DNA of 64,000 bases from a virus: the IMG/VR virus record IMGVR_UViG_3300012984_000014, positions 52,462-116,461 of that record. One strand, 5' to 3'. The notes beneath the pieces were generated by a model. The model saw only the letters and a program-made list of their open reading frames with translations, did not search any database and was not told where the DNA came from. The translations under genes were made by a program, and so were the position numbers. Of this stretch, positions 17,927 through 45,879 are shown piece after piece; position 1 is the stretch's first letter; each line of letters opens with the position of its first letter.

Positions 17927-18172
17927 ATGGCATCAGCAAAGAAACGCCCCAAGGGTCAATGGATCGATGACCTCCACGGCGCCGTGGGCGACTTCATCAG
18001 GATCGAGACGGCCGTGGGTGTGAACAGAGGCGGGAAGCTCTCCGGAATTCGTACCCGTACCATCGAGTTCAACGGAGAAAAGCAGGACATTCCGACCGAG
18101 TTGGAGTTGAACGGCGACCCAACGGACACTGTTAATATCTCCAGCTTGGTAAAAATTTCCATAGGAACTTGA
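17927..18172 (+). CDS. hypothetical protein
   Basis: An 81-residue protein starting two bases after the previous stop. It has a basic N-terminus (KKRPKG) and a beta-rich middle with several Thr/Ile/Val alternations, and could be a small OB- or SH3-like barrel. Nothing diagnostic is seen. It is followed directly by the promoter module at 18.18 kb. Confidence 0.55.
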   Translation: MASAKKRPKGQWIDDLHGAVGDFIRIETAVGVNRGGKLSGIRTRTIEFNGEKQDIPTELELNGDPTDTVNISSLVKISIGT

Positions 18173-18209
18173 AAAAGTTCTCGACTCTGTAACTGATTCA
18201 GGCTATGGT
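18171..18209 (+). promoter_or_regulatory. phage promoter module P1
   Basis: An A-tract and GTTCTCGAC (CTCGAC at 18180-18185), an 18-base spacer, then TATGGT at 18204-18209. The block matches eleven other modules in this window. The spacer here diverges (TCTGTAACTG in place of TGTGGAAGCA). The predicted start of transcription is about 18216, four bases before the preferred ATG (18220) of the homing endonuclease. Confidence 0.7.
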
Positions 18210-18219
18210 TGAGGCTTCT

Positions 18220-18705
18220 ATGAGCTGCGGAGTCTACAGAATCGTGTGCTTGGCGAACGGTCGATGCTACATCGGCTCAAGTCAGCGCATCGAGCTGCGC
18301 TGGGGCGAACACAAGAGCGAGCTTCGCTCCGGCGTCCATCACAGTCGACACCTGCAGCGCTGCTGGGCCAAGTACGGGGAAGACCGGTTCAAGTTCGAGG
18401 TCCTAGAGTTGGTCGACGGCGACCCGCTTGCGGCCGAGCAACGCTGGCTGGACCAGGAGCGGCCTGAGCTCAACGGAACGTTCAATGCGGTGGCTCCGTG
18501 GCGAGGAAAACGGCTTTCGGCGGAGCATCGCGCCAAGATCAGCGCCAGCCACAAGGGGCGAGTCGGGCCGTGGCTTGGGAAGAAGCGCCCCGACCTCGGG
18601 GCGAAAGTCGGCGCGGCGCTTCGCGGCCGAACGCTCCCGGAAACGACGCGCGCTAAGATGCGCGCTGCTTGGGCACGTAGGAAAGCACTTCAAAAGGAGA
18701 ATTAG
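18220..18705 (+). CDS. GIY-YIG homing endonuclease (second copy)
   Basis: A 161-residue nuclease. CGVYRIVC...GRCYIGSS is the GIY-YIG core, followed by the Arg/His helix (LRWGEHKSEL) and NUMOD3-like repeats (GKRLSAEHRAKIS and GRTLPETTRAKMR). It has the same domain layout as the gene at 16.7 kb but is not a recent duplicate. An in-frame ATG at 18205 exists, but it falls inside the -10 hexamer of the promoter, so ATG 18220 is preferred. It carries its own promoter and may be transcribed independently of the replication operon. Confidence 0.85.
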   Translation: MSCGVYRIVCLANGRCYIGSSQRIELRWGEHKSELRSGVHHSRHLQRCWAKYGEDRFKFEVLELVDGDPLAAEQRWLDQERPELNGTFNAVAPWRGKRLSAEHRAKISASHKGRVGPWLGKKRPDLGAKVGAALRGRTLPETTRAKMRAAWARRKALQKEN

Positions 18706-19206
18706 ATGGAATTTATGGAAATGCAAGAACAGGTCCACACGTGGGCCGAAGAGAAGGGCTGGACCGACCCCGAGATCCTGAACCCTGACGCGGACCCGAC
18801 TCCGACCGAGGAGCGGCTGGCGCAAATCGCGCTCATTCACCTCCAACTCAGCAACGAGCTGGAGTTGATCAGGAAGGGCGAGCCGTCTAGCGGGTTTTTG
18901 GAAACCATCGCCGTCTCGCTTCCGCCGATCGCGCGCGTCGAAGGCGTGAACGCGATCAAGGTGCTGTCCAAGCTTGCGCTCGTGCACTCGGAGGTCTCCG
19001 AGGGCGTGGATGCCGTTCTGAAGGGCGTCATCAAGACTACCGTCGTGGACGGAAAGCCGGAGGGCCTCGGGAGCGAAACCGCTGACGTTCACATCCGGCT
19101 GCTTCAGCTCGCTGGAATGCTCAATCAGGATTCAACCAAAGACTTCGCGTTGAAGATGGAATACAACGCGCAACGAAGCTTCAAGCACGGCGGAAAGCTC
19201 GCCTGA
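18706..19206 (+). CDS. MazG-like nucleotide pyrophosphohydrolase
   Basis: A 166-residue all-alpha protein. The metal-binding pattern of the MazG family is visible: HSEVSE at about residue 91, SETADVHIRLL at about residue 126, and the family C-terminus KMEYNAQRSFKHGGK. It would hydrolyse an (d)NTP to (d)NMP and pyrophosphate, or reduce alarmone levels as proposed for phage MazG proteins. The N-terminal half contains a weaker copy of the helix pair (HLQLSNELE). AAAGGAGAA lies before the ATG. Confidence 0.82.
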   Translation: MEFMEMQEQVHTWAEEKGWTDPEILNPDADPTPTEERLAQIALIHLQLSNELELIRKGEPSSGFLETIAVSLPPIARVEGVNAIKVLSKLALVHSEVSEGVDAVLKGVIKTTVVDGKPEGLGSETADVHIRLLQLAGMLNQDSTKDFALKMEYNAQRSFKHGGKLA

Positions 19207-19207
19207 G

Positions 19208-19861
19208 ATGTCACACCCCCAACATCCGAACTGCTCGGCCTGCCGAAAGGCGCTGTTCAAGAGTGCGGCTGCCGCGAAGGTCAAGCCGTCGGACCCGTAT
19301 GCGTTCTGCCGGAATCCAGCGTGCGCTGAATACACCTTCCGGAATGACCGCCCGACGGATCCCAAGAAGCCGACGCCGGAGCAACTGGCCAAGGCAGTTC
19401 GGATCTCGGGGAAGGCTAGCAATGGTCTGGATGGCAAGTCTGCCAAGACGGTTTCGACGCAGAAGCCGAAGCAGTCGGTGAAGGTCGATCATTCGGCGAG
19501 TTTGAAGGCTGTCAAGGAAGCAGACAAGATCATCGCGATCACGCCGGCTCCAGAACCGGCGTCGGAGCCCGCGCCGAAAACGGTAAGGATCAATCCCAAG
19601 CCCGTTTCGGCCCGCGGCGTTCCACGTCGGGCCGTTCCGATATCGGAGGCACCGGCCAAGCCGAAGGAGTCCGAGCCACTGGCAAAGGCGCGCACCCGTT
19701 TGCGCGCAATACTGGAAGCAGTTACGGTCGGACAACCAAAGGAATCCATAAGTTTGGTCCTGGCAATCCTGAATCAGGAGACAGGGAACCAGAAGGCCGC
19801 GGAAGCGCTGATCGACGAGTTCAAGCTGGATGAGAAGTACGGTCTGCTCAAGTTCACATGA
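19208..19861 (+). CDS. hypothetical protein with N-terminal zinc finger and Pro/Ala linker
   Basis: A 217-residue protein. Residues 9-40 carry CSAC and a later CRNPAC, a likely zinc finger. Residues 60-160 are low-complexity Lys/Pro/Ala. A compact helical domain ends the chain (LRAILEAVTVG.. to LKFT). It resembles a DNA-binding adaptor with a flexible linker, but no family is recognised. It is ATGA-coupled to the small gene after it. Confidence 0.55.
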   Translation: MSHPQHPNCSACRKALFKSAAAAKVKPSDPYAFCRNPACAEYTFRNDRPTDPKKPTPEQLAKAVRISGKASNGLDGKSAKTVSTQKPKQSVKVDHSASLKAVKEADKIIAITPAPEPASEPAPKTVRINPKPVSARGVPRRAVPISEAPAKPKESEPLAKARTRLRAILEAVTVGQPKESISLVLAILNQETGNQKAAEALIDEFKLDEKYGLLKFT

Positions 19862-20034
19862 CCGCGGACGAATACGAGGAGCGCTTTGGCTCGAAGCCGC
19901 TGCTGGACGACCTTCAACGGGTGAACTGCTCTCGGCCGGGGACGATCGGTCATCTGCTTTGCGGAGTCTGCGAGGAGTGCAACCGACCTAAGTTCCAGTG
20001 CGATTGCCCCACTAAGTCTCCACAAACTGAATAA
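19858..20034 (+). CDS. 58-residue cysteine-cluster protein
   Basis: A short frame coupled by ATGA to the previous stop and ending at TAA 20032-20034. The second half holds a dense cysteine cluster (CGVCEEC and CDC), typical of a small zinc or metal knuckle. The N-terminus is acidic. It is followed by promoter module P2. Confidence 0.55.
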   Translation: MTADEYEERFGSKPLLDDLQRVNCSRPGTIGHLLCGVCEECNRPKFQCDCPTKSPQTE

Positions 20035-20050
20035 TCGTTCGTGATTAGCA

Positions 20051-20087
20051 AAAAGTTCTCGACCGATGGAAGCATCGGCACTAGAAC
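20051..20087 (+). promoter_or_regulatory. phage promoter module P2
   Basis: AAAAGTT with CTCGAC at 20058-20063, an 18-base spacer containing TGGAAGCA, and TAGAAC at 20082-20087. The predicted transcription start is about 20094, one base before the ATG at 20095, so the transcript should be leaderless. An open frame runs through the promoter from GTG 20041, but promoter conservation argues against translation from there. Confidence 0.75.
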
Positions 20088-20094
20088 TAGCTAC

Positions 20095-21222
20095 ATGGAA
20101 GCCACAACCGATACCGTCGAAGTCAAGAAGAAGAAGCCAGGCAAGAAGGGCGAGAAGATCCCGATGAAGGCGGGCCGACCGGTGGCGCCCCCGGCAGAGC
20201 CGGGAACGGGCCGGCGCCCCACGCCTCCGGAATTCGAGGAGACCGAAGTCAAGGGCATCACCTCCGCCTGGCTCATCTGGGTGGGCTCGGAATTCTACAA
20301 GGGCATCGCCGACTGGAGCGACGAGGCCATCGCGCTCGGCATCTCCAAGCGCCTCCCGAATGCCTCGATGGCGCGCCAACTCGCGGCCCCGGGCACGGTC
20401 GTTTTCGTTGCCCACGATGAAGGTGAAAGCCACAGCTGCACCAAGTGCGTCGGAGCGTGTGAGTGTCCGAGTTGCCGCAAGCGCATCAGCGAAATGACCG
20501 CGCTGCGAAACGTGATCGCTTCGATGAAGGCCGCGTTCAAGGGGGACTTCGTGACCGAGGCGCCGCGCGGACTGAAGCGCTTCGAGGAAGTCCGCCTGCG
20601 AACCATCGCAGAGCTCGAAGCCGAGATGAAGGCTTGCGAGGAGTGCAAGGGGAAGGGTTCCATCAAGGCGGGCACCGGCGGAGAGGTGGCGCTCAAGGAC
20701 GGCCGCGTGTGGGATTATCGCACCTACAACTACTGGCTCCACCAGCCCAAGAAGTTCGATCCGGAGACGATGGTGGCCGAGGTCGAAATGTGCGAGACTT
20801 GCGGCGGGAAGGGCGACCTTCCCAATGCTCAAATCTTCGGCGTTTTCGCTCCGGAGCGCGTCGAATACATCGCCCGCGGCGACGAGACGAAGGAGGAGCT
20901 AGAAGCCCTCAAGGGCTTCAGGATCGTGGAGAAGGACGTGCTCAAGACGGAGGCCAAACGCAAGTGCGGTGTCCGGAAGGCCGGCGGCGTGTACGCGGTT
21001 ACTTCTGCCGAGGGCGCGGACGGCGACAAGCTGCTGCAGGATGCCATCAAGGCGGGCCTCGTCAAGCCGGATGGCGCCGAGGTCCACGGCTCGTTCATCC
21101 GCTTTGGGCGCCCTGTCCCGGTGGCAGAGAAGCGCTTCCGTGGATTGAAGAAGATCAACTTGGGAACGGTGCGTGAAGCTGTCGACCAAGCCGAGATGAT
21201 CGCAGAGGCGAGCGAAGCCTGA
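20095..21222 (+). CDS. large zinc-knuckle protein (DnaJ-like CxxCxGxG motifs)
   Basis: A 375-residue protein. A Lys/Pro-rich N-terminus precedes a globular domain. Cysteine motifs follow in the middle: CTKCVGACECPSC, then CEECKGKG, then CETCGGKG. The last two match DnaJ zinc-finger repeats, but no J domain or HPD motif is present. The C-terminal 100 residues are a separate mixed domain. Its stop meets the minus-strand receiver gene end to end (TGATCA). Function unknown. Confidence 0.6.
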   Translation: MEATTDTVEVKKKKPGKKGEKIPMKAGRPVAPPAEPGTGRRPTPPEFEETEVKGITSAWLIWVGSEFYKGIADWSDEAIALGISKRLPNASMARQLAAPGTVVFVAHDEGESHSCTKCVGACECPSCRKRISEMTALRNVIASMKAAFKGDFVTEAPRGLKRFEEVRLRTIAELEAEMKACEECKGKGSIKAGTGGEVALKDGRVWDYRTYNYWLHQPKKFDPETMVAEVEMCETCGGKGDLPNAQIFGVFAPERVEYIARGDETKEELEALKGFRIVEKDVLKTEAKRKCGVRKAGGVYAVTSAEGADGDKLLQDAIKAGLVKPDGAEVHGSFIRFGRPVPVAEKRFRGLKKINLGTVREAVDQAEMIAEASEA

Positions 21223-21585
21223 TCAAGCTATGGAGGCGAGTTCAGTCAGAATTCGCCTTCGCAACTGCAGGTTGTTGAAAGGCTTCAAGAACGTCCGAAG
21301 CTCTTCACCCGGCGGAACGTCCCCGCCAGTGGTGAAGAGCGTTCGGATCTGCGGCCGTAGCGCGCGCGCTTCTTTTTCCAGTTCCAACCCGTTGCCGTCC
21401 TTCAGATAGATGTCTGTGATCAGGACGACCTTGACGTGTGGGCAGATCGTTCGCAGGATCAGGCGCGCGTTGGCAACGGTGTAGGCGGAGATGACGTCAT
21501 AGGCATCGCTTGCCAGGGAGCGAAGCAGCGCGCGAACCACCAGCGCGTCATCGTCTACAAGTAGCACAATCGCTGGCCTGTCCAT
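21223..21585 (-). CDS. stand-alone response-regulator receiver domain
   Basis: A 120-residue receiver domain with no output domain. The acidic pocket is DDD at residues 11-13, the phospho-acceptor is D58 in LITDIYLKDGNG, the conserved Ser/Thr is in LFTTGGD, and the Lys is in FLKPF. All five functional positions of CheY-type receivers are present. It runs opposite to most genes, downstream of the secreted lysozyme-like gene, and probably in one transcript with it. It may intercept a host phosphorelay. A GAGG sits upstream of its ATG. Confidence 0.88.
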   Translation of the reverse strand: MDRPAIVLLVDDDALVVRALLRSLASDAYDVISAYTVANARLILRTICPHVKVVLITDIYLKDGNGLELEKEARALRPQIRTLFTTGGDVPPGEELRTFLKPFNNLQLRRRILTELASIA

Positions 21586-21607
21586 GGCCTCGATTATGCC
21601 CGAGCGA

Positions 21608-22150
21608 TCACAGGTGGCCTAGGACCTGATTGAACGTCGAAACGCGCAAAGCCTCACGCGGGACGGTCGCGGTGACACGTCGTCCGCCGTAGGCTCGGAA
21701 CATTCCTTCAGGGAAGGGTGCGTGGGCGTTTTTTGCAGTGTAGAAGGCGCTTCGCATCTTGCGGGCGGCCGCGATGCTTTGGACATCGACGTCGGGCGAC
21801 CCCCAGACCTCGGACGTGTAGCCGTCCTTGTGGATCTGGTACAGGCCCCAAGCGCGGCCGCGGTCGCACTCCTTCGGCCGGCAGTCGTTCCGGCGGAGGC
21901 GATCGGAGAGGGCCGTTTCAACGTAGGCGGTCGCCAGCATCGCTGCTGCCAGGATCCGGTCACCCTTCGAGGCGCTGGCGATGGCGCGCGCGAGCGCTTC
22001 CGGGTCCGTCTTCTCCTCGCGCGGCGCTAGCAGGCTTCGCTGTGCCAAGACGAGGCGATCCACCATGTTGTAGGGCTCCTTGCTGGCAGCCGGGAGCGCG
22101 ATGGCTAGGCCGGCAAGGAGGAGCAGGGAGAGGGCGAAGCGTTTGATCAT
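21608..22150 (-). CDS. secreted lysozyme/transglycosylase-like endolysin
   Basis: A 180-residue protein starting at the ATG complementary to 22148-22150, with a CAGGAG site upstream. Residues 1-23 form a signal peptide or signal-anchor (MIKRFALSLLLLAGLAIALPA). The catalytic Glu is probably E78 in TAYVETALSD. The downstream GRAWGLYQIHKDG matches the GLMQI motif of SLT-type lysozymes. Four nearby charged and Cys residues (NDCRPKECDRG) may form a disulfide. With its own export signal it could reach the periplasm without a holin pore. The frame is open further upstream but lacks a better start. Confidence 0.72.
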   Translation of the reverse strand: MIKRFALSLLLLAGLAIALPAASKEPYNMVDRLVLAQRSLLAPREEKTDPEALARAIASASKGDRILAAAMLATAYVETALSDRLRRNDCRPKECDRGRAWGLYQIHKDGYTSEVWGSPDVDVQSIAAARKMRSAFYTAKNAHAPFPEGMFRAYGGRRVTATVPREALRVSTFNQVLGHL

Positions 22151-22230
22151 GGGAGTCTCCTGAAAGCGGGGATGGTACGCTAGGTAGCGCGCGCCAACAT
22201 CTTTCCGCTGAATCGCGAACTGGCTCAATA

Positions 22231-22302
22231 TTCCACAAATGCAAAAAAAGATTGGTGAAAGGCAAAAAAGTTATCGACGTGTGGAAGCAAAAGCCGTACT
22301 AC
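22231..22302 (+). promoter_or_regulatory. phage promoter module P3 with operator arms
   Basis: The left arm TTCCACAA is at 22231-22238 and the right arm TGTGGAA at 22280-22286. A-tracts (AAAAAAAGATTGG and AAAAAAGTT) are about 21 bases apart. ATCGAC is at 22273-22278, with an 18-base spacer to TACTAC at 22297-22302. The predicted start of transcription coincides with the ATG at 22309. The region between this promoter and the minus-strand lysozyme gene is otherwise featureless. Confidence 0.75.
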
Positions 22303-22308
22303 TTAGGC

Positions 22309-22608
22309 ATGGCAAGCAGCAAAGCAGTGAAGTTCGGCCCAGTGTTCGCTCGCGCGTCTTATACGGTGAAGGTGCGCGGGGAGCATGGGTGCGCCGTGTA
22401 TGGCAATTCAGACGTGAGTGCTCAAGTCGAGTGTTACCTTTCCACTCGACCACACGGCGTCGTGGATGTGTTCTACAGCGAGTCGTGTGGCCACTGCAGT
22501 GGCTCGGGCCGCGTCTGTACGAACCGCCGCATGATGCGCTGGGCGCCGTGCCCGGCGTGCAAGGGCAACCCCGAGATCCAGGCCGACACGCTGATCGCAA
22601 CGTTCTAA
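22309..22608 (+). CDS. small zinc-knuckle protein, predicted leaderless
   Basis: A 99-residue protein whose ATG lies seven bases after the promoter hexamer. It contains CGHCSGSG and CPACKGN, spaced as in DnaJ-type zinc knuckles. The N-terminal half is beta-rich. The open frame extends upstream through the promoter, but the conserved promoter sequence makes ATG 22309 the likely start. Function unknown. Confidence 0.6.
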   Translation: MASSKAVKFGPVFARASYTVKVRGEHGCAVYGNSDVSAQVECYLSTRPHGVVDVFYSESCGHCSGSGRVCTNRRMMRWAPCPACKGNPEIQADTLIATF

Positions 22609-22636
22609 AAAACAGAACCTGGAAGGAATCAGAAAA

Positions 22637-23173: not shown

Positions 23174-23181
23174 TGTCATAG

Positions 23182-23253
23182 TTCCACAAGCAGAGAAAAT
23201 ATTGGAGTCTGGCAAAAAAAGTTCTCGACGTGTGGAAGCACTTAGGCTAAGGT
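23182..23253 (+). promoter_or_regulatory. phage promoter module P4 with operator arms
   Basis: TTCCACAA at 23182-23189 pairs with TGTGGAA at 23231-23237. CTCGAC is at 23224-23229, followed by an 18-base spacer containing TGTGGAAGCA and TAAGGT at 23248-23253. The predicted transcript starts about 23260, just before a strong hairpin. Confidence 0.75.
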
Positions 23254-23262
23254 TCTTCTTGT

Positions 23263-23285
23263 AGGGCGGCCGTGGCGGCCGCCCT
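23263..23285 (+). other. 5' leader hairpin
   Basis: AGGGCGGCCG and CGGCCGCCCT form a perfect 10-bp stem with a 3-base loop. It lies a few bases from the predicted 5' end of the P4 transcript and directly before the ribosome binding site (GGAAGGAG). Such 5' stem-loops commonly protect mRNA from decay. No U-run follows. Confidence 0.6.
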
Positions 23286-23299
23286 CGGAAGGAGAGAAA

Positions 23300-24172: not shown

Positions 24173-24178
24173 ACAGCG

Positions 24179-32734: not shown

Positions 32735-32806
32735 ATCCACAAAGTTGAGAAAAAGAACGGCGCTACCAAAAAAGTTCTCGACTTGTGGAAGCAGAAGCCT
32801 TATGGT
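32735..32806 (+). promoter_or_regulatory. phage promoter module P5 with operator arms
   Basis: ATCCACAA at 32735-32742 faces TTGTGGAA at 32783-32790. CTCGAC is at 32777-32782, followed by an 18-base spacer and TATGGT at 32801-32806. The predicted start of transcription is about 32813. A small hairpin (GGCGG/CCGCC at 32829-32842) and a GAAGGAG site follow before the ATG at 32860. Confidence 0.75.
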
Positions 32807-32859
32807 CTCTCCTGTCGCCGAACGAACCGGCGGGAAGCCGCCCCGAAGGAGAGAAGACG

Positions 32860-33572: not shown

Positions 33573-33652
33573 CCACAATCTTCCACCAACTACAAAAAAG
33601 ATTGGTGGAAGGCAAAAAAGTTCTCGATTTGTGGAAGCAGAAGCCGTACTTA
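33573..33652 (+). promoter_or_regulatory. phage promoter module P6 with operator arms
   Basis: CCACAA and TTCCACC (33573-33587) face TTGTGGAA at 33629-33636. AAAAAAGATTGG and AAAAAAGTT are 21 bases apart. CTCGAT is at 33623-33628 (the only module ending in T), the spacer is 18 bases and the hexamer is TACTTA at 33647-33652. The ATG at 33659 falls at the predicted transcription start. Confidence 0.72.
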
Positions 33653-34034: not shown

Positions 34035-34360
34035 AAATGGCCTCTATTAGCGATCTAGCTAGCTCGGAAGTCACTCGGCTCGTGGCCGATAACTTCAAAA
34101 AGACCCAGCGCGGCCCTCGCCCTGCCGGCGCTCCCTTCGTGGACGTCGCCTTCATCCCCGGGCGAAAGAAGGCCGTCCTAGTCCTCGTCAACGGAGAGGG
34201 CGCGGACGAGTACAGGCGCGGGAAGACTTTCGCCGCGACCCTAACCACGAAAGGCTGGAAGCCGCTCCCGGCGATGAACGCGCTTTCCGGAAAGAAGATC
34301 TACACGGACGCGGAAGCGGCCGAGGCCGTTCGCGCCCTCTTCGCGGCGGTCGAACGATGA
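34031..34360 (+). CDS. hypothetical protein
   Basis: A 109-residue protein. GTG 34031 overlaps the previous stop and has AAGGAG five bases upstream; ATG 34037 is the alternative. The middle has strands FVDVAFIPGRKKAVLVLV and a C-terminal helix. No known family. Confidence 0.5.
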   Translation: MKMASISDLASSEVTRLVADNFKKTQRGPRPAGAPFVDVAFIPGRKKAVLVLVNGEGADEYRRGKTFAATLTTKGWKPLPAMNALSGKKIYTDAEAAEAVRALFAAVER

Positions 34361-34566
34361 GCGCGCGGTTCGTAGGCGTTAAGCGCACGAGAAGCCACGT
34401 AGGCGCGCCGCTACCGCCCCACATGGCCCACGCTCCGACGCTCTCCAAGGGCGCGCGGAAGGGCGCTCCGGAGCCGGCTAGCGCGCTCCTTCCGGACGGA
34501 ACGGAAGGCCCGAAGGAGGGCGAAGACTTCGTGGAATGGTTCCTCCGGCGCGAAGGCGCCAAATAA
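34357..34566 (+). CDS. small basic hypothetical protein
   Basis: A 69-residue protein, mainly Pro/Ala/Lys-rich and probably disordered, with an acidic-aromatic end (GEDFVEWFLRREGAK). ATGA-coupled to the previous gene and last in the P6 unit. Confidence 0.45.
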   Translation: MSARFVGVKRTRSHVGAPLPPHMAHAPTLSKGARKGAPEPASALLPDGTEGPKEGEDFVEWFLRREGAK

Positions 34567-34637
34567 TCCACAGTTTCCAAAAAAGATTGGGACGCTACAA
34601 AAAAGTTCTCGACTTGTGGAAGCATCGGGCCTATACC
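34566..34637 (+). promoter_or_regulatory. phage promoter module P7 with operator arms
   Basis: ATCCACAG near 34566-34573 faces TTGTGGAA at 34614-34621. Two A6-G-(A/T)-T tracts are 21 bases apart. CTCGAC is at 34608-34613, the spacer 18 bases, and TATACC at 34632-34637. The ATG at 34646 lies two bases after the predicted start. Confidence 0.75.
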
Positions 34638-35450: not shown

Positions 35451-35510
35451 GTATAAAAGTTCCACACCTCCAAAAAAGTTCTCGACTTGTGGAAGCAGCG
35501 GACGTATACC
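35430..35510 (+). promoter_or_regulatory. phage promoter module P8 with operator arms
   Basis: Left arms TCCACAA (35431) and TTCCACA (35460) face TTGTGGAA at 35487-35494. CTCGAC is at 35481-35486, with an 18-base spacer and TATACC at 35505-35510. The ATG at 35518 is one base after the predicted start. The left arm at 35431 overlaps the end of the previous gene. Confidence 0.75.
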
Positions 35511-35736: not shown

Positions 35737-35808
35737 AAGCCGCCTGCCGCGCCGATTCGCCTCCGCGCCTCCCGGCCCGGGGGCTTTCGGCGTTAGGAGA
35801 CCACATAA
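35737..35808 (+). other. intercistronic leader with stem-forming repeat
   Basis: GAAAGCC (35735-35741) can pair with GGCTTTC (35782-35788). The block TCGCCTCCGCGCC (35757-35769) and GGCTTTCGGCGTTAG (35782-35796) recurs exactly 1000 bp downstream. It precedes an AGGAG site and ATG 35809. Confidence 0.55.
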
Positions 35809-36428: not shown

Positions 36429-36499
36429 TCCACAAAGTAGATATAATCGACCGCGCCTACAAAAAAAGTCTCGACTTGTGGAAGCAACGGCCGTATACC
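36429..36499 (+). promoter_or_regulatory. phage promoter module P9 with operator arms
   Basis: TTCCACAA (36429-36436) faces TTGTGGAA at 36476-36483. CTCGAC is at 36470-36475 (within AGTCTCGAC, one T shorter than most copies), the spacer is 18 bases and TATACC lies at 36494-36499. The ATG at 36507 is one base after the predicted start. Confidence 0.75.
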
Positions 36500-36740: not shown

Positions 36741-36796
36741 CGCGCTCCGCTCCCGCTCGCCTCCGCGCCCTAGGGTCTGGAGGCTTTCGGCGTTAG
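36737..36796 (+). other. intercistronic leader stem-loop (copy of the 35.8-kb leader)
   Basis: CTAACGC (36737-36743) can pair with GCGTTAG (36790-36796). TCGCCTCCGCGCC (36757-36769) and GGCTTTCGGCGTTAG (36782-36796) repeat the leader exactly 1000 bp upstream. Four bases separate the repeat from the ATG of the next gene, so no normal ribosome binding site is present unless the repeat supplies it. Confidence 0.55.
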
Positions 36797-37175: not shown

Positions 37176-37400
37176 ATGAATAAGCCAAGAATGACCAAGA
37201 AGACGCGCCATTTCCTCGAATTCGTCCGGGAGAACCCGGGCCTCAACGCGCTCCGGATCCACCGCGCGATTGGCCACCTCTACACGCGGAACGGTCACCA
37301 GTTCACCTACGCAACGCTCAAGCGAATGGTAAAAAACGGCCTCGCTACGCGCGGCCCGTCGGCGAACGGCCGCGGATTCGGCATCCACCCCGTCGGCTAG
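37176..37400 (+). CDS. small winged-helix DNA-binding-like protein
   Basis: A 74-residue basic protein. ATG 37176 follows a GGAAGG site; TTG 37161 is an upstream alternative. The pattern KTRHFLEFVRENPG, then ALRIHRAIGHLYTRNG, then ATLKRMVKNGLATR is that of a winged helix. It may be a small transcription regulator of the accessory region. Last gene of the P9 unit. Confidence 0.6.
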   Translation: MNKPRMTKKTRHFLEFVRENPGLNALRIHRAIGHLYTRNGHQFTYATLKRMVKNGLATRGPSANGRGFGIHPVG

Positions 37401-37407: not shown

Positions 37408-37480
37408 TCTACAAAGTTCGTCAAAAAGATTGGTCGAGAGCAAAAAAGTTCTCGACGTGTGGAAGCAGAAGGATTAGGTT
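37408..37480 (+). promoter_or_regulatory. phage promoter module P10
   Basis: A weak left arm (TCTACAAAG near 37408) faces TGTGGAA at 37458-37464. CAAAAAGATTGG and CAAAAAAGTT repeat as in other copies. CTCGAC is at 37451-37456, with an 18-base spacer and TAGGTT at 37475-37480. The predicted transcript starts about 37487, directly at a hairpin. Confidence 0.73.
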
Positions 37481-38947: not shown

Positions 38948-38959
38948 AAAGAGGGCAAA

Positions 38960-39229
38960 ATGTCCAACAATTGGTGCAAAGAGTGTGAGCATTTAGCCAT
39001 CCCGTGCGCGGCCTGCGAGGAGAAGGCCTCCAAAGAGCGGCTCGAACGTCTCGAACGGATCAAAACGCCCATAGCCGCCAGCCTTCCAGGCCGCGCCACC
39101 CATTTCGAGCACACCCCAGGGAAGCTCGCTTGTGGCCTCGTAAGCTCCTCCGCGCTCCGAACGTCCGAGTTTCCAAGAGTTGATTGCAATAGCTGCCGAA
39201 GACGCGCCCTAGCGCGCCGTTTCGTCTAG
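38960..39229 (+). CDS. small zinc-finger hypothetical protein
   Basis: An 89-residue protein preceded by a GAGGG site. CKEC, CAAC and later CNSC form a likely zinc-binding pair, separated by a basic helix. Its stop overlaps a GGGTAATTGGGTTA element at 39229. It is the last gene before the long non-coding region. Confidence 0.55.
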   Translation: MSNNWCKECEHLAIPCAACEEKASKERLERLERIKTPIAASLPGRATHFEHTPGKLACGLVSSSALRTSEFPRVDCNSCRRRALARRFV

Positions 39230-39309
39230 GGTAATTGGGTTAGACGTCGCTCGCCCTCCCCTTGGATGGAGTAGCCGAGCCCCCGAAAGCGGAAAAGAGA
39301 AACGACCCG

Positions 39310-39344
39310 AAGCCGGAAGGAGCCTAACCCGCCCTTTCCGGCTT
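39310..39344 (+). terminator. putative rho-independent-like terminator
   Basis: AAGCCGGAA (39310-39318) pairs with TTCCGGCTT (39336-39344) as a 9-bp stem, followed by TTCC. The loop is 17 bases, longer than usual, and the U-run is short. It lies 80 bases after the last gene of the P10 unit and before the non-coding region. Confidence 0.45.
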
Positions 39345-40122
39345 TCCTGCGTTCCGCTGTGCCCTTCTGCGCGCTTTCGCGCTTCCCGCAGCCCGTCCTC
39401 CACGCCGCCCTCCGGAAGCGCGTTTAAGCGCCTCCTAGCGTCTCCGCGCTCCAACGGCCGATGAGAATCGACCGAGCGCTTGAGCGCTCGCCTCCAGAAA
39501 GCCAACGCCTTGTGCCTAAACGGCCCGTTACGGCGTTTTCGCATCGTCTCATGGACGAGAGTGTGCGGAGCCCGCCGAGACGATTCTTGCCATCGTTCTG
39601 TGCCAAAACGCCCTAAGCGCCCAAATTCGCCCTTTCGCCGATTCCCATCGTTCCGCCGCTCCGCGCCTCCTCGTCCACCCAACCCCTTGGAAGAATCACC
39701 ACCAGAACCGAACGAACCGAGATAGCCTCCGCCGTTCTACGCTGCCCGCCGTTTGCGCGTACGTGTGTTCTTTTACGCTCTCGAACGCCTCCGGAGCGCT
39801 TCGTTGTTCCGCTTTCGAAGGCTCGGAATTGACCAAATCTCGGCTCCGGAAACCCCGTGGATTGTCCGGCACACACATCCTGCAGGCACGCCTTGGCCAT
39901 CCCGGTCCATGGTGCATCCACCTGCCAAACGCCACCATTTTGTGGGTAAGCGGAGGTCGCCTGGATGGAGAATTTGTGGCGTTTCTCGGCTCCCGAGGGT
40001 AAGTCAAGTTACACAGAGAGGGTAATTGGGGTGGAATTGCCGATTGTGTACGTATCGTGGACAACGGTCACGTACGGACCTGAAATGGCCCTGGGAAAAC
40101 TTCTGGCTCCCCAGCGCGTACG

Positions 40123-40397
40123 TAACTCTATTACCCTATTAGGAGGATTGCAATAGTAATATCCATAAGATAATGCATATATCGAGTAACCCTATTACCC
40201 TATGTAACTCTATTACCCTATTAGAGTAGGGCCGACAGCACCTCGGCAAGAAGAGCCTATTAGGGTAATTGGGTTACAGTGGAATGGTAAGAGCGTTACA
40301 TCGAGTCGGCCGCTCGTCTAACCCAATTACCCTAGGGTAAGAGCGTTACGCCTAACCCTATTACCCTATAGCTATACAGTGTAACCCTATTACCCTA
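40123..40397. repeat. iteron-like cluster of TAACCC(T/A)ATTACCCTA
   Basis: Seven copies lie at 40123, 40187, 40205, 40262 (reverse), 40319, 40353 and 40382. Each is a 16-base element built from two TNACCC blocks 8 bases apart. Between them GGTAAGAGCGTTAC occurs twice, at 40286 and 40336. An AT-rich tract (40150-40190) lies among the first copies. The arrangement is that of a replication origin or a multi-site operator. Confidence 0.75.
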
Positions 40398-40669: not shown

Positions 40670-40699
40670 CTCGACGCCCTCCCGCGCATCCACTATACC
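40670..40699 (+). promoter_or_regulatory. phage promoter module P11 (divergent copy)
   Basis: CTCGAC at 40670-40675, an 18-base spacer, and TATACC at 40694-40699. The A-tract and TGTGGAAGCA are absent, and TTGACT (40659-40664) overlaps upstream, so the classification is weaker than for the other modules. ATG 40711 lies five bases after the predicted start. Confidence 0.6.
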
Positions 40700-40710
40700 T
40701 ACCGACACAC

Positions 40711-41137: not shown

Positions 41138-41252
41138 TCAGCCAAGAAGGCGCAAACCCAGTAAACACATTTCACCAGACAGTCGTCCTATCGCGCCCCG
41201 GCGACGCGCACCACGCCCGGGACGCTCCACTCATTCGAGGAACAGCAACAAC

Positions 41253-41489
41253 ATGCCAGCCCGGAAAGCAACGCAACCACGGGACGCACCCCAGTTCGCA
41301 AAACAGCAACAACGACTAAATGCCGCCGTTCTCGAACGGGCACGCGGAAACGAGCAGGTGGCTCGCATCGAGTTGGCAGGCGCAAAGCGTCGCCTCCTCC
41401 TGGCGGCCGACGAATACGCGCGGAAGCAAGACCAAGCCGACCGATGCACCGCTGAACTTCGAATGCTCGAAGCCAGATACAAGAAGTGA
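41253..41489 (+). CDS. small coiled-coil protein
   Basis: A 78-residue charged helix throughout (QFAKQQQRLNAAVLERARG to MLEARYKK), likely a coiled coil. The start is set by an AGGA about 11 bases upstream, which is weak. It follows a 115-base gap without other signals. Confidence 0.45.
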   Translation: MPARKATQPRDAPQFAKQQQRLNAAVLERARGNEQVARIELAGAKRRLLLAADEYARKQDQADRCTAELRMLEARYKK

Positions 41490-41520
41490 ACGACCGACCA
41501 TTTGCAGCCTGGAGAGCAAC

Positions 41521-41733
41521 GTGGAACCAAAACCAGCAATGAACCCGAAAGTAAAGAGCAAACCGACGCCCGCGCCGAAGCCGCCGCCGCCGGACCCGCA
41601 CGAGGTGGCCGCCAAGGCGCTGACCGACGTCATCGGCATCCTCGGGCAACTCAACGATGACGACCGCGAGCGCGTTCTGAAGAGCGCGCAGGCCTACTTC
41701 TCTCCCCTCGCGAAAAAGGAATGGGAACGGTGA
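41521..41733 (+). CDS. small hypothetical protein with Pro-rich start
   Basis: A 70-residue protein. GTG 41521 has a GGAGAG site six bases upstream; ATG 41539 is an alternative. Lys/Pro-rich residues lead to a helical end (VAAKALTDVIGILGQL, then ERVLKSAQAYF). Coupled to the next gene (GTGA). Confidence 0.5.
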   Translation: MEPKPAMNPKVKSKPTPAPKPPPPDPHEVAAKALTDVIGILGQLNDDDRERVLKSAQAYFSPLAKKEWER

Positions 41734-41984
41734 GACACAGCGGCGCCATCCTCAAGAAGAACGTTCGGAGCATCACGCTTCGGTACGTCACGAAGCCCGG
41801 CAGCGCGGGCACGACACTTCACTACACGACGCTTCCACGAGCCCAGAAGGCGGCGAAGAGCAAGGTCGGATCTCGGCCGCGTCAGGACCCGGACGGGTAC
41901 TTGGTCGGGCCGGACGGCTGCTGCTTGTTCTTCAAAGGCGCGACGCTCGAAGAGCTCTTTCCAACCAAACAGGAAAACCAATGA
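41730..41984 (+). CDS. small basic hypothetical protein
   Basis: An 84-residue basic protein. GTG 41730 overlaps the previous stop and is preferred over the in-frame ATG 41721, which would extend the overlap. The strands SITLRYVTKPGSAGTTLHYT suggest a small beta fold. ATGA-coupled to the next gene. Confidence 0.5.
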   Translation: MRHSGAILKKNVRSITLRYVTKPGSAGTTLHYTTLPRAQKAAKSKVGSRPRQDPDGYLVGPDGCCLFFKGATLEELFPTKQENQ

Positions 41985-42430
41985 CCAAGCCAACTCATAA
42001 GCCACCGCCAGCACAGAAGTTCTCCAAGCCCCGTACGCCCATCACGCAATCCGGCGTCGATGCACTCCTGGACCAAGCCGTGGAGAATGGCTACCAAGAC
42101 GAGATCACACGCCAGGACCCCCGCTCGGTGGCTTGGGACATGCAGCGCTATTCGCCAGAGTGCGAGAACGAACCGACGGCGCGCCTGGTTCTCTTCATCG
42201 AAGACTGGCAGAAGCGCCATGTGCCCGCTTCTGAGACGCCCATCGCCGACGCTCTGCGATACTTGTCGGCGCTCGCCCTTGAGAAGGACCAAGGCCTAAA
42301 AACCAGCCAAGCCATCCACGTTTTGGAAGTGGCTCTGGAAGGCGAGCTTGGCGCTGAAGAACGCGCGGCGCACCCAATGCTCGACGTCTCCGTGGCCAAG
42401 GAACTTCGCAAGCACGTGAAGGAGTTCTGA
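41981..42430 (+). CDS. hypothetical helical protein
   Basis: A 149-residue protein, Lys/Pro-rich at the start and helical and acidic after that. No motif recognised. ATGA-coupled to the previous gene. Confidence 0.5.
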   Translation: MTKPTHKPPPAQKFSKPRTPITQSGVDALLDQAVENGYQDEITRQDPRSVAWDMQRYSPECENEPTARLVLFIEDWQKRHVPASETPIADALRYLSALALEKDQGLKTSQAIHVLEVALEGELGAEERAAHPMLDVSVAKELRKHVKEF

Positions 42431-42433
42431 GCC

Positions 42434-42685
42434 GTGCACCAGTTCACCGGAAAGTACACGGTCAAGTTCGAATTCCGCGTGCCGGGCGAGCCAACGTTCA
42501 AGCGTTGGATGGGTGACTTTGCCAGCGCGGATCCGAAGCACGCACGCAATTTAGTGACGGGGCAACTCAACATGCTGGGCTACGAAGTTGGAGCGCTCGC
42601 CGTGTACGACGGCGAATGGCTCGTGCTCGGCAACATCCTCCCGTTCGTGCCGGGCGAGCTTGTCCGGCTTCCGACCATCCACTGA
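42434..42685 (+). CDS. small beta-rich hypothetical protein
   Basis: An 83-residue protein with a GTG start. Strands YTVKFEFRVPGEP and GALAVYDGEWLVLG suggest a compact alpha/beta fold. No known family. The gap to the next gene is 7 bases. Confidence 0.5.
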   Translation: MHQFTGKYTVKFEFRVPGEPTFKRWMGDFASADPKHARNLVTGQLNMLGYEVGALAVYDGEWLVLGNILPFVPGELVRLPTIH

Positions 42686-42692
42686 GGCAAAT

Positions 42693-42953
42693 ATGGCAAT
42701 CACAGTCGACAAGGACGGCATCCCGACGAATCGACCACAGGTCACGTTCGTCGGAATTCGTGCGACCAACGTGTTCTTCATCCTCGGCGCGTGCCGGCGC
42801 GCCGCAATGAAAGAGGGCTGGACGACGGCACAATGGGCGCTACTCCGGGAGAAGTTCTTGGAGTTGGATCGAAGTGACGACCAAGGCGAGGCCGCGATGG
42901 CGTTGGCAACCCGATACTTCACCGTTCAAATCAACAACGCGGAGATAGGCTGA
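42693..42953 (+). CDS. small hypothetical protein
   Basis: An 86-residue protein. The strand-helix pattern (VTFVGIRATNVFFILGACRR) then helices (EGWTTAQWALLREKFL) reads as alpha/beta. The next ATG overlaps its stop (TGATG). Confidence 0.5.
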   Translation: MAITVDKDGIPTNRPQVTFVGIRATNVFFILGACRRAAMKEGWTTAQWALLREKFLELDRSDDQGEAAMALATRYFTVQINNAEIG

Positions 42954-43246
42954 TGGACCGGCTCACGCCGTTCGATCTCTACTCGACCGCCGAATTTGTG
43001 GCCGATAGCATCAAGCGCAAATTCGCAGGCAGCGCATCCCGGCGCTTGCAGGTGCAAATCTGCGAGAAGATCATCCTGCCGCTCGCGACCGACGAGGAGC
43101 TGCGGCGCGGGCTCGCCGCCGTCATCGGGCACGCGCGCGACGGGATCGAAACCATGCACACCGTCAACCACACGGAGCCAGGGAGCTCGCCGGAAGAGAA
43201 GGCGTTGATCTGGCTCCAAAAGCTGATTGGGGCGGCTCCGCTATGA
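42953..43246 (+). CDS. small helical hypothetical protein
   Basis: A 97-residue mostly helical protein (FVADSIKRKFAGSASRRLQV, then DEELRRGLAAVIGHARDG). It starts on the last base of the previous stop and is ATGA-coupled to the next. No family. Confidence 0.5.
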   Translation: MDRLTPFDLYSTAEFVADSIKRKFAGSASRRLQVQICEKIILPLATDEELRRGLAAVIGHARDGIETMHTVNHTEPGSSPEEKALIWLQKLIGAAPL

Positions 43247-43428
43247 ACGAGGAACAGAAGGCGCGCCTCCAGGAAGTCCGTGATGACGCGGAACGTGCTT
43301 ACAGGCGCGAGGACGACGAAGACGAACGGCGCGCACTTCGAATCAAGGTGGAAACGCTCGAAGCAGTCGCCTTTATCTTCGGCGTGGAACTGGACCACTT
43401 TGATCCGTACCCGACGAGGCGCGGGTGA
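43243..43428 (+). CDS. small charged hypothetical protein
   Basis: A 61-residue highly charged helix (RLQEVRDDAERAYRREDDED) with a short hydrophobic end. ATGA- and GTGA-coupled on its two sides. Function unknown. Confidence 0.5.
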   Translation: MNEEQKARLQEVRDDAERAYRREDDEDERRALRIKVETLEAVAFIFGVELDHFDPYPTRRG

Positions 43429-43592
43429 AACTCTCGCTCGCCTTCCGGCAAGCCGCGTGGTTGTGGTACGCCAAGGCCCAGATTCGACGCGACGGCGTTT
43501 GGATTTCACGGCCACCGGTGTTCGAAGAAGGCGAGTGGCAATCCATTCAGCTCAAGCAAGGCATCCAACCTAGTTACCCTGAGGCAAGATGA
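43425..43592 (+). CDS. 55-residue basic hypothetical protein
   Basis: A short GTG-started frame coupled on both sides, ending at TGA 43590-43592. Aromatic and basic (WLWYAKAQIRRDGVWISR). The DNA near its end contains AACCTAGTTACCCTG, close to the regulatory element seen elsewhere. Confidence 0.45.
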   Translation: MKLSLAFRQAAWLWYAKAQIRRDGVWISRPPVFEEGEWQSIQLKQGIQPSYPEAR

Positions 43593-43720
43593 ATTTTGAA
43601 AAGGCATCGCGAATTGTGGGGCTGATCGCATACATGCTCGCTGGAATGTTTGTAGCGCGCATGTATGACGATTGTCGCCGTTCGCGCCAATGTCCGCATC
43701 CAATCACGGTTTGCAAATGA
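43589..43720 (+). CDS. 43-residue membrane peptide
   Basis: A short ATGA-coupled frame ending at TGA 43718-43720. Residues 8-25 form one hydrophobic segment (IVGLIAYMLAGMFVA), followed by a basic Cys-containing tail. Probably an inner-membrane peptide. Confidence 0.5.
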   Translation: MNFEKASRIVGLIAYMLAGMFVARMYDDCRRSRQCPHPITVCK

Positions 43721-44070
43721 AAGACACGCTGATCGTCACCCAGCGCATGGGAGACACGAGCCGTTTTCGAATCCAGTGGGCTTTCTCGGACGGCGAGCTT
43801 GGTGGATATCTTGGACAGGACAAGAACGACGGAGGAGAAGAGCCGCCCGAAGACAGAGACGCTTGGGAGCATTGGGCGGCCAGCAAGGCGGTGATGGGCC
43901 TTCCGGGCTCCGACCGGGATGACACGAGCACGTTTTGGGAGACAGAGGCCGGGGCGCGCGTCGCGCTCCGTCTCGCGAAGGCAGCTCTGAAACAAGCGAA
44001 GCCGTTGCCCGATTGGGCGAAGACGGCGTTGGCGGAGGGCTGGAAGCCTCCGAAGGGATGGAAGGCGTGA
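43717..44070 (+). CDS. hypothetical protein
   Basis: A 117-residue protein with ATG 43717 on the previous stop. A beta-rich first half (TLIVTQRMGDTSRFRIQW) is followed by an acidic loop (GGEEPPEDRD) and helices. No family. Confidence 0.5.
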   Translation: MKDTLIVTQRMGDTSRFRIQWAFSDGELGGYLGQDKNDGGEEPPEDRDAWEHWAASKAVMGLPGSDRDDTSTFWETEAGARVALRLAKAALKQAKPLPDWAKTALAEGWKPPKGWKA

Positions 44071-44441
44071 CTGAAAAACTTCGTTTGGCGCGGTCCATGC
44101 GGGTGAACGGCTTGAATTTCACTTGGACCAAAGAGGACTACTCCAACGACTTTTGGCAGTTGAAAGCCACGATGGGCTTGGCTGTTATAACTATCTGGCC
44201 AGATGCGAATGTTGGTTTTGACGCCGATGATGGAGCTTGGATCGCAAGCCGATGGTGCGCCAGCTATTCGCCGCTCAGCCCTGGGTGCGAAGTAACTGTG
44301 CATGGAAGGACACCTGAAACAGCGGTTGCCAACCTGATCAAGCAACTCCGAAAACTCGCGCACGACATAAACGAATCCACAGGGAGGCTGATCGCTCGTA
44401 TCAAGAGCGAAAAAGCGTCCAAGAAAGCGAAGGCATCTTGA
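44067..44441 (+). CDS. hypothetical protein with basic tail
   Basis: A 124-residue protein with a GTG start overlapping the previous stop. The middle is aromatic and beta-rich (NGLNFTWTKEDY, then GLAVITIWPDA), and the C-terminus is Lys-rich (RIKSEKASKKAKAS). No family. TTGA-coupled to the next gene. Confidence 0.5.
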   Translation: MTEKLRLARSMRVNGLNFTWTKEDYSNDFWQLKATMGLAVITIWPDANVGFDADDGAWIASRWCASYSPLSPGCEVTVHGRTPETAVANLIKQLRKLAHDINESTGRLIARIKSEKASKKAKAS

Positions 44442-44923
44442 CTGGCAAACGCAACGTCCGCCCGCGCTACGCGCCGCTGAAGGTCGGCACGGAGATCCGC
44501 CTGGTGAAGGAGGAGAAGTCGAAGGTGCGCGACCTCGATGGCGGCGTGGCTGAATACATCCGCTTTCGTGCGGGGACGACCGGCCGCATCACCGTACCGA
44601 AGCTGCCCAACGGCAACGTCGTGGTTGATATCTTCTTGGTCGACAAGGGCACGAAGGGCTACGAGATCACGCGCTCGAACGTCCGAGCCCTCCCCAGGCA
44701 GAAGAAGCCGTTGGGCAACTGCGTTCCCAAGGGCTTCGACCTCCTCAGCCCGGCCGAACGACTCTCCATGAAGCCGATGGCGGCCAAGAGTCTCGCAACG
44801 TCACTCGCCAACCAACGGCGAGCGAAGCGGGCGATGTTGGCGGCAATCCAGCACTACGCCGATTGCACGGCGAACGTCTCGCACAACCGTCGGCTTGCCA
44901 ACATCGAGTCGGGCCTGACGTGA
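44438..44923 (+). CDS. hypothetical protein, SH3/KOW-like start
   Basis: A 161-residue basic protein with a TTG start. The N-terminal half (VGTEIRLVKEEKSKVRDLDG, then RAGTTGRITVPKLPNGNVVV) resembles a small KOW-type barrel, and the C-terminal half is helical and basic. Possibly RNA- or DNA-binding. GTGA-coupled to the next gene. Confidence 0.5.
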   Translation: MTGKRNVRPRYAPLKVGTEIRLVKEEKSKVRDLDGGVAEYIRFRAGTTGRITVPKLPNGNVVVDIFLVDKGTKGYEITRSNVRALPRQKKPLGNCVPKGFDLLSPAERLSMKPMAAKSLATSLANQRRAKRAMLAAIQHYADCTANVSHNRRLANIESGLT

Positions 44924-45237
44924 TCAACCCCAGCGGCCCTCCAAGCCAATCGTTGCCTCCGCACATCGCGCTCGGGACCCTTCTCCTGGAGGTGAAGATG
45001 GTGTCGTTGACGTTCAATGGGATTGTCGTCACGGCGGACGTCGCCGACCGTGACAACCAGTATTGCACGACGACCATCACGGCCAACTTCGCGCGCTTAC
45101 CTATGGAAGATGACGCGGACCTTCTTCGGCGCGGGTTGAAGATCTTGGTCTGTCACGAGGTGGACGAGCAGATCAAGTGCAACGGCTTTCGGGTCTTCGA
45201 CCCGCACAACCCGGCCAACGTGGAAAGGCACTACTGA
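44920..45237 (+). CDS. hypothetical beta-rich protein
   Basis: A 105-residue frame from GTG 44920, which overlaps the previous stop. A stronger ribosome binding site (GGAGGTGAAG) directly precedes the in-frame ATG 44998, so the real product may be only 79 residues. The body is beta-rich (VSLTFNGIVVTADV). No family. Confidence 0.5.
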   Translation: MINPSGPPSQSLPPHIALGTLLLEVKMVSLTFNGIVVTADVADRDNQYCTTTITANFARLPMEDDADLLRRGLKILVCHEVDEQIKCNGFRVFDPHNPANVERHY

Positions 45238-45593
45238 TGAAGATGATGCCGGGCCAGACGCCCTACACGCCGGAGGAGCTGAATCGCCTCCAGGCGCTCG
45301 TTGGCTCGGCCATCGTGGCCGTGGAAGAGTTTGGCGAAGACGAGTTGGAATATTACACAGAAAGGAAGAAGAGATTGGAAGCAGCAAAGAGCAACTTGCC
45401 CCCGGTCGACCTCGTGGGGTGCGAAAAGAGCGTGTATGCCGTGATGGCTCGCGTCCGCGCGGCCGCTACGCGCGCGGGGTGGAACGCGCAACGCATCGGA
45501 GACTTCCGCGGGAAGCTCTTCACGGCCAACAATAACGAGGGCTACGAGGCCGCGATGAAGCTGGTGGCGACCGAATTCCAGGTGAAGTCGTGA
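45237..45593 (+). CDS. hypothetical helical protein
   Basis: A 118-residue protein beginning on the previous stop (TGATG). It has helical pieces (ELNRLQALVGSAIVAVEEFG and VYAVMARVRAAATRAGW) and no recognised motif. GTGA-coupled to the next gene. Confidence 0.5.
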   Translation: MKMMPGQTPYTPEELNRLQALVGSAIVAVEEFGEDELEYYTERKKRLEAAKSNLPPVDLVGCEKSVYAVMARVRAAATRAGWNAQRIGDFRGKLFTANNNEGYEAAMKLVATEFQVKS

Positions 45594-45808
45594 GCCAGGA
45601 GGCGCAAGCCTTCCCCGGCGAGCCGACCCCGAGCGAGCGGATCGCCATCGCGACGGCGCGCGTTGCACGAAGGAAGCAGGAGCTGGACAATGCCGTGGCC
45701 GAGTACGCCCTGGCCTGCCAAACGCTCGCCGTTGCCATCGAGCGCGCAGATCGCTTCCACGAGGCTCAGACCAACCCGGCGAACGAGAAGCCCGACGATC
45801 CAGCCTAA
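45590..45808 (+). CDS. small helical hypothetical protein
   Basis: A 72-residue acidic helix (ERIAIATARVARRKQELDNA, then EYALACQTLAVAIERAD), likely a coiled coil. Last gene before promoter P12. Confidence 0.5.
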   Translation: MSQEAQAFPGEPTPSERIAIATARVARRKQELDNAVAEYALACQTLAVAIERADRFHEAQTNPANEKPDDPA

Positions 45809-45810
45809 TA

Positions 45811-45879
45811 TCCACAGACTCAAAAAAAGATTCCACAGGTCAAAAAAGTTCTCGACGCCTGGAAGGGAAAGGTTATGCT
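45811..45879 (+). promoter_or_regulatory. phage promoter module P12
   Basis: TATCCACAG near 45810 is the left arm; the right arm is degraded (GCCTGGAAG). CAAAAAAAGATT and CAAAAAAGTT are present. CTCGAC lies at 45851-45856, with a 17-base spacer and TATGCT at 45874-45879. The ATG at 45887 is one base after the predicted start. Confidence 0.7.

Follow-up and report, generated by a model that had tools for sequence, protein, structure and literature searches.

Repeated putative sigma70-type promoters with a conserved spacer element in a contractile-tailed phage and its relatives

A repeated module before genes of a contractile-tailed phage

The 64,000-nucleotide window analysed here comprises bases 52,462-116,461 of a linear virus record of 116,461 bases (IMG/VR record IMGVR_UViG_3300012984_000014), and within it a short module, A6-GTTCTCGAC followed by a spacer and a TA-rich hexamer, recurs upstream of genes. 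An earlier note, made from the letters alone, took the modules for twelve near-identical promoters of one phage regulon that carry an unusual box. The repeat raises the questions of what kind of promoter this is, which polymerase reads it and what else is held in common beyond the hexamers. The reading that we favour, with a probability of about 0.6, is that the host polymerase reads the modules as sigma70-type promoters of one pre-late regulon, in a contractile-tailed phage of lytic type, and that they bear a regulator site, TGGAAGC, in the spacer.

The record is 60% GC, with called genes almost all on one strand, and the window encodes a tail sheath, tape measure, baseplate wedge, DnaE-type DNA polymerase, terminase and portal; by these genes the virus is a contractile-tailed phage. 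No close DNA relative was found among GenBank phages, and the terminase and polymerase are <60% identical to any entry in the phage collection. By terminase, the relatives in IMG/VR are two short contigs with 94% identity and several long contigs with 58-73%, and a search for the host in genome contigs returned just distant terminase matches, in three metagenome-assembled genomes. Below, the record that contains the window is designated G000 and its relatives G006, G010, G034, G044, G045, G051, G053 and G054. Every record is metagenomic and possibly fragmentary, and genes were called with a home-made scorer.

With up to three mismatches allowed, A6-GTTCTCGAC occurs 13 times in the window, where 1.56 matches are expected and no shuffled sequence gave more than 4. 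A 28-bp position weight matrix scanned over both strands of the whole record identified 11 strong sites (22.7-50.1 bits), every one on the + strand, with the next-best site at 9.4 bits. All 11 are among the twelve positions noted earlier, and near-identity therefore stands for eleven copies; the copy at 40,670 (40,671 in our register) keeps TCGACG-17-TATACC without the A-tract and without TGTGGAAGCA and was missed by the matrix, and the spacer of the copy at 18,180 diverges. The search of the remaining genome that the earlier note had suggested added no further strong copy and two degenerate ones beyond the window, at genome 43,175 and 37,285 (window -9,286 and -15,176). The modules were said to stand before gene clusters and not within them, and this was confirmed: 12/12 window sites lie upstream of a + strand open reading frame (ORF), and no convincing copy lies inside a gene. 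The nearest called gene typically ends 32-52 bases 5′ of the module. Between 32.8 and 37.5 kb the modules recur with a period of 846-989 bp, with 2-4 tiny genes in each interval. When the exact consensus was sought in 2.9 million viral contigs only its own record matched, and a looser pattern matched just G006 and four AT-rich contigs whose flanks were unrelated.

Register and promoter elements

The spacing originally described, CTCGAC with the hexamer 18 bases on (17 in one copy), holds in that register, and the relatives provide a second one. The module of G006 is CAAAAAAGTTCTTGCC, with TTGCC at the -35 position, where G045 has TAGACG or TCGACG, G051 has TAGACG and G034 has TTGCC, TCGAC or TAGCC. 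There are eight copies in G054, seven of which read TTGACT-17-TATAAT or TATACT, with TACAAT as the -10 of the eighth. These -35 letters align with TCGACN, and the -35 element of the window modules is therefore one base off TTGAC, with a spacer of 17 bases. The suggestion that a non-standard box replaces TTGACA is not borne out, as the box occupies the position of TTGAC in the relatives and differs from it by one base; the apparently unusual GTTCTCGAC box is mainly an effect of register.

Compared with the TTGAC of sigma70, the -35 element is TCGACN in 11 of the 12 copies and TCGATT in one. Where sigma70 promoters have a spacer of 16-18 bases followed by TANNNT, eleven copies have 17 bases and the 45,852 copy has 16, and the -10 hexamers begin with TA in 12/12 copies and end with T in 5/12. 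Once the -35 is set at TCGACN, A6 occupies -45 to -40, and a tract of A5-A7 is present at -40 to -45 in all eleven strong copies; in most G034 and G054 copies T5-T7 stands in its place. The proximal UP subsite extends from -45 to -37 and spacers are most often 17 bases long (PMC2613000), and in T4-like early promoters positions -40 to -44 are A-rich (PMC1524935). Judged by its sequence, the module conforms to the definition of a sigma70-type promoter. A sigma54 promoter (GG-N10-GC) was considered and rejected by eye on a mismatch in spacing. G045 also has a second repeated set, with two T-tracts ~21 bases apart, a TAGCGC-type -35, a conserved spacer and TATGTT or TAGGTT, followed by ATG or GTG 7 nt past the -10.

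A terminator immediately 5′ was considered as a general part of the module and rejected, as a clear hairpin followed by a run of seven T residues occurs in G054 and is not general in G000. On the - strand of G054 at 88-96 kb, a GC hairpin with such a T7 terminator abuts the -35 of several module promoters, which gives fused terminator-promoter boundaries.

Start codons and leaders

In seven of the twelve G000 copies the first good ATG is located 6, 6, 7, 7, 7, 7 and 8 nt past the -10, and in two more 10 and 11 nt past it. The chance of an ATG 6-8 nt after a TA hexamer is 2.6%, and 7/12 corresponds to an indicative P ~6e-9. At least four of seven G034 sites, identified with a pattern blind to ATG, have the ATG at 7 nt (P ~1e-5, likewise indicative), and the ATG is also at 7 nt in one G006 copy and one G045 copy. 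With the ATG 6-8 nt after the -10, leaderless mRNAs are predicted for most copies, and transcripts would start at the A of the ATG in about 7/12. Almost one in four mycobacterial transcripts is leaderless (PMC4633059), and the modules point to a host that translates such mRNAs. From the other three G000 copies a leader would be transcribed that folds into a strong 5′ hairpin and carries a Shine-Dalgarno sequence; in two of these, the 5′ end is predicted to pair with the Shine-Dalgarno sequence. No known RNA family was matched in window 17-47 kb. Two 50-base hairpins with 78% identity, at window 35,747-35,796 and 36,747-36,796, follow the first gene of two adjacent cassettes and are possible attenuators.

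Genes behind the modules

The modules are confined to genome 37-98 kb, and none is present before the structural genes at 9-37 kb and 107-116 kb. Downstream of them lie small unknown ORFs, a homing endonuclease gene, a conserved gene with a zinc motif and, at the degenerate copy at genome 43,175 and also at G006 71,789, an operon whose third gene encodes a Sigma70_r2 protein. The proposed early or accessory regulon is thus upheld in so far as the modules are shared and absent from structural genes; it is not accessory only, as it includes the conserved gene at 20,095-21,222 and the sigma-like operon. Shared by many units and absent from structural genes, the modules are best read as marking a common early or pre-late regulon, whose timing would be early or early/middle. 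Single-sequence searches with two proteins from the accessory region found no relatives.

A conserved element in the spacer

In the promoters of the gene at 20,095-21,222 and its orthologues, taken from six phages whose proteins share 42-52% identity, columns 3-6 and 8 of the spacer do not vary (TGGA.G). The element, mostly TGGAAGC, keeps a constant position two bases past the -35 and eight before the -10, and so spans -27 to -21. No specific contacts between RNA polymerase and the spacer are known upstream of -15 (PMC2613000); because TGGAAGC is conserved where the polymerase makes no known contact, we infer another reader. An inverted copy (TTCCAC, TCCACC, CATCCAC or GCTTCCACC) is found 47-51 bases upstream in G000, G006 and G045, and its letters track those of the spacer, with CCACA paired with TGTGG in G000, CCACC with GGTGG in G045 and CATCCA with TGGATG in G006.

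TGGAAGC and the inverted partner ~48 bases upstream most probably serve as the site of one regulator, of the phage or of the host, that would switch all copies together. The recurrence of the design, in other letters, in related phages suggests one common switch for their early genes. Such a regulator would more likely repress than activate, because the near-consensus hexamers of G054 need no activator. In a more specific model, TGGAAGC and its partner, about five helical turns upstream over phased A/T tracts, would allow a phage regulator to loop or mask the promoter, and regulator and operators would drift together, one uniform dialect per phage, across non-paralogous leaderless operons, as a new promoter class; this we put forward tentatively, with the odds against it.

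A regulator of the opposite sign, a phage protein that acts as MotA does from TGGAAGC and its inverted copy to compensate for a weak -35 and -10, seems doubtful to us. It would explain why the spacer element is conserved in G000 while both hexamers are sub-consensus, and the second set of G045, which has a worse -35 (TAGCGC) and yet retains the paired T-tracts, the spacer and the predicted leaderless start, also argues for it. G054, however, keeps the spacer element despite near-consensus hexamers that need no help, and TGGAAGC does not replace the -35 as a MotA box does. An activator was not found; a 74-amino-acid winged-helix-like protein (window 37,176-37,400) was examined as a candidate regulator and set aside, its model being of low confidence (pLDDT, predicted local distance difference test, 60) with no family match.

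Which polymerase reads the modules

A multisubunit polymerase (Rpb2) was not found in five phages, in a search in which controls matched 14/14, and the search for a single-subunit polymerase (PF00940) gave no match with the phages and none with its controls. No TATAAATA-type late promoters were detected in four phages. On the favoured reading, host RNA polymerase with sigma70 would recognize the A6 UP-like tract, the TCGACN -35, the 17-base spacer and the TANNNN -10.

The phages do encode a sigma-like protein, with a Sigma70_r2 match in 5/5 phages searched, and it might instead be this protein that reads the modules, as middle or late promoters whose letters differ between phages through coevolution of sigma and promoter. 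In G000 it is encoded at genome 46,412-47,473 (window -6,049 to -4,988) and matches a PHROG sigma (E 5.6e-5) and SigA/HrdB chain profiles (E ~6e-4); top Foldseek matches are among sigma chains, none with E <0.001. The protein has Sigma70 region 2, a second helix-turn-helix-like segment (recognized by eye) and, in the predicted model, a C-terminal beta-rich domain, and Pfam detected no Sigma70 region 4 in G000. The conservation of the core protein, its sigma-like matches and the greater likeness of promoter copies within than between genomes are all as this explanation would have it, and still we consider it unlikely. The gene is kept in phages that lack modules (G010, G053, G005 and G044), a module stands before its own operon, which calls for another sigma in the first round, the TTGACT and TATAAT of G054 are host-type consensus hexamers, and the modules avoid structural genes. 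In the simplest cascade, host sigma would read the modules, and the phage sigma-like protein among their products would direct later genes. G034 alone encodes a further sigma-like protein (5,266-5,790, in L193), which is smaller and has regions 2 and 4.

The likeness of copies within a genome extends to the 24 bases upstream, where similarity is 0.53 within and 0.35 between genomes. At the three promoters whose position is shared by G000 and G034, the pairs have a similarity of 0.33-0.38, against 0.43-0.52 to copies in their own genome. Such a pattern requires either homogenisation of the copies or a reader that changes and takes them with it. That they are only recent duplicates, or gene-converted boundary sequence, kept by descent and not by function would accord with the upstream similarity and the 846-989 bp recurrence, and is nevertheless very improbable: the genes behind the modules are not paralogous, so that an origin of the cassettes by gene duplication was rejected, and the spacer and hexamer positions are kept where the proteins are 42-52% identical, which is not expected of drifting duplicates. 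It is least credible that the TTCCAC/GTGGAA pair represents DnaA boxes through which host DnaA controls the modules, as several upstream halves are, by eye, one mismatch from TTWTNCACA but the spacer half has two, and the relatives have GCTTCCACC, CATCCACGA or no box, a drift per phage that is unexpected for DnaA boxes.

Several observations weigh against sigma70-type promoters read by the host polymerase and controlled at TGGAAGC. The inverted upstream copy is not evident in G034 or G054, and a protein that binds TGGAAGC was not identified. Several -10 hexamers in G000 are poor (TATACC, TACTTA, TACTAC) and may not make strong promoters unaided. The sigma70 consensus used may not be the host's, the host may not use leaderless mRNAs, and the sigma-region-2 protein of the phages could itself be the module reader. 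The -10 hexamers were placed by eye and the composite motif score, which gave 9 matches in G000, 6 in G034 and 8 in G054 against 0.0-0.3 in shuffled genomes, was designed after inspection of the motif, so that P values are indicative only.

Coordinates and neighbouring features

Two minus-strand genes are located among the + strand genes at window 21,223-22,150; one encodes a receiver-only response regulator (PF00072, E 2.6e-8) and the other a signal-peptide protein with a lysozyme-like AWGLYQIHKDGY stretch. In a gene-poor stretch of 2.2 kb, GTAACYCTATTACCCTA occurs at least nine times at window 39,227-40,397, with copies in either orientation, and the GC skew is negative from ~34 to 42 kb. 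This array is a candidate origin, iteron or operator array.

Table 1. Modules and associated features of the window (+ strand; start codons are given with their distance past the -10; leaders, leaderless starts and pairing energies are predictions)
Feature	Coordinates	-35	Spacer	-10	Start codon	Remarks
Module 1	18171..18209	TCGACT 18181-18186	CTGTAACTGATTCAGGC (divergent)	TATGGT 18204-18209	ATG 18220	A5-GTTC; GIY-YIG homing endonuclease 18220-18705; place matches G034 promoter at 301
Module 2	20049..20087	TCGACC	gaTGGAAGCatcggcac	TAGAAC 20082-20087	ATG 20095, +7 nt	leaderless (predicted); conserved gene 20095-21222; promoter region kept in G006, G034, G045, G051, G054
Inverted copy, module 3	22231..22237					TTCCACA, inverted copy of spacer TGTGGAA
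Module 3	22264..22302	TCGACG	tgTGGAAGCaaaagccg	TACTAC	ATG 22309, +6 nt	
Module 4	23215..23253	TCGACG	tgTGGAAGCacttaggc	TAAGGT 23248-23253	ATG 23300	hairpin leader, Shine-Dalgarno
Module 4 leader	23254..23299					GC hairpin; 5′ TCTTCTT pairs with Shine-Dalgarno AAGGAGA, -30.0 kcal/mol
Module 5	32768..32806	TCGACT	tgTGGAAGCagaagcct	TATGGT 32801-32806	ATG 32860	leader; same gene as behind G034 promoter at 13060
Module 5 leader	32807..32859					5′ CTCTCCT pairs with AGGAGAG at Shine-Dalgarno, -20.7 kcal/mol
Module 6	33614..33652	TCGATT	tgTGGAAGCagaagccg	TACTTA	ATG 33659, +6 nt	52-aa ORF
Module 7	34599..34637	TCGACT	tgTGGAAGCatcgggcc	TATACC	ATG 34646, +8 nt	44-aa ORF
Module 8	35472..35510	TCGACT	tgTGGAAGCagcggacg	TATACC	ATG 35518, +7 nt	72-aa ORF
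Module 9	36461..36499	TCGACT	tgTGGAAGCaacggccg	TATACC	ATG 36507, +7 nt	77-aa ORF; orthologue in G034 (66% identity, 73 aa) with promoter TTTACC..gaTGGAAGtc..TATACCtatttacATG
Module 10	37442..37480	TCGACG	tgTGGAAGCagaaggat	TAGGTT	ATG 37528	hairpin leader, Shine-Dalgarno
Module 11 (weak)	40671..40699	TCGACG	17 bases	TATACC	ATG 40711, +11 nt	no A-tract or TGGAAGC
Module 12	45842..45879	TCGACG	ccTGGAAGGgaaaggt (16 bases)	TATGCT 45874-45879	ATG 45887, +7 nt	
Inverted-copy equivalents						48 bases 5′ of TGTGGA in modules 4, 5, 7, 9; 59 bases in module 8

Comparison with known systems

The modules define a conserved promoter class for an uncultured group of contractile-tailed phages for which no close cultured relative was found, and they give exact predicted positions for the transcription starts and start codons of dozens of tiny genes that are overlooked or given a wrong start in gene calling. 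In several aligned genomes the promoter dialect and its putative reader can be compared, and identification of a regulator that binds TGGAAGC would give a hold on how these phages pass from early to late infection.

In having a -10 about 7 nt before the start codon and, by prediction, no 5′ untranslated region, most modules resemble mycobacterial leaderless promoters (PMC4633059); here this arrangement would occur within a repeated family of phage promoters. The ESAS/SAS elements of cluster K mycobacteriophages (SAS, start-associated sequence) also combine repeats at gene starts, inverted repeats, a consensus specific to each subcluster and placement before the same gene families (PMC3203893). 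In ESAS, 17-bp inverted repeats are separated by 4-13 bp and immediately precede the 13-bp start-associated sequence (PMC3203893), whereas the module halves are 6-9 bp, lie ~48 bp apart start to start and have the hexamers between and after them, and the modules contain no GGGATAGGAGCCC start-associated sequence.

Repeats of other kinds were noted as well. G010 (L109, L110) has eleven copies of GAGAACCGGC at 66.5-92.6 kb, mostly as AGGAGAACCGGCCATG at gene starts and SAS-like, some of them behind TTGACT-17-TAYNAT promoters. G029 (L122) has nine copies of CATACTAAGTA at 25.0-36.7 kb, mostly in the palindrome TGCATACTAAGTATGCA and often beside a start codon, an operator-like repeat. G045 has two arrays, at 34,322-34,388 and 75,645-75,711 (- strand), each with four 22-bp tandem repeats containing GGACTTTCCCAG.

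Like the modules, T4 middle promoters have a conserved element, specific to the phage, that lies 5′ of a sigma70 -10 (PMC2988021). The MotA box is, however, centred near -30 and replaces the -35 (PMC2988021), whereas TGGAAGC is centred near -24 and the -35 is kept in the modules compared; neither a MotA nor an AsiA homologue was present among the proteins scanned. The resemblance to the early promoters of T4 and T4-like phages is broader, as these are dozens of near-identical sigma70 promoters per genome, with an A-rich tract at -40 to -44, further conservation outside the hexamers and consensus variants specific to each phage, and many copies precede novel, non-conserved ORFs (PMC2988021, PMC1524935). 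In contrast to T4 early promoters, the modules have TGGAAGC in the spacer with an inverted copy upstream, leaderless mRNAs are predicted for most, the -35 is TNGNC in place of GTTTAC and there is no consistent TGn of an extended -10; by the genes examined, the phage group is also unrelated to T4. By analogy, the modules probably work as T4 early promoters do, yet they are not classed with them because the GTTTAC -35 and the TGn are absent.

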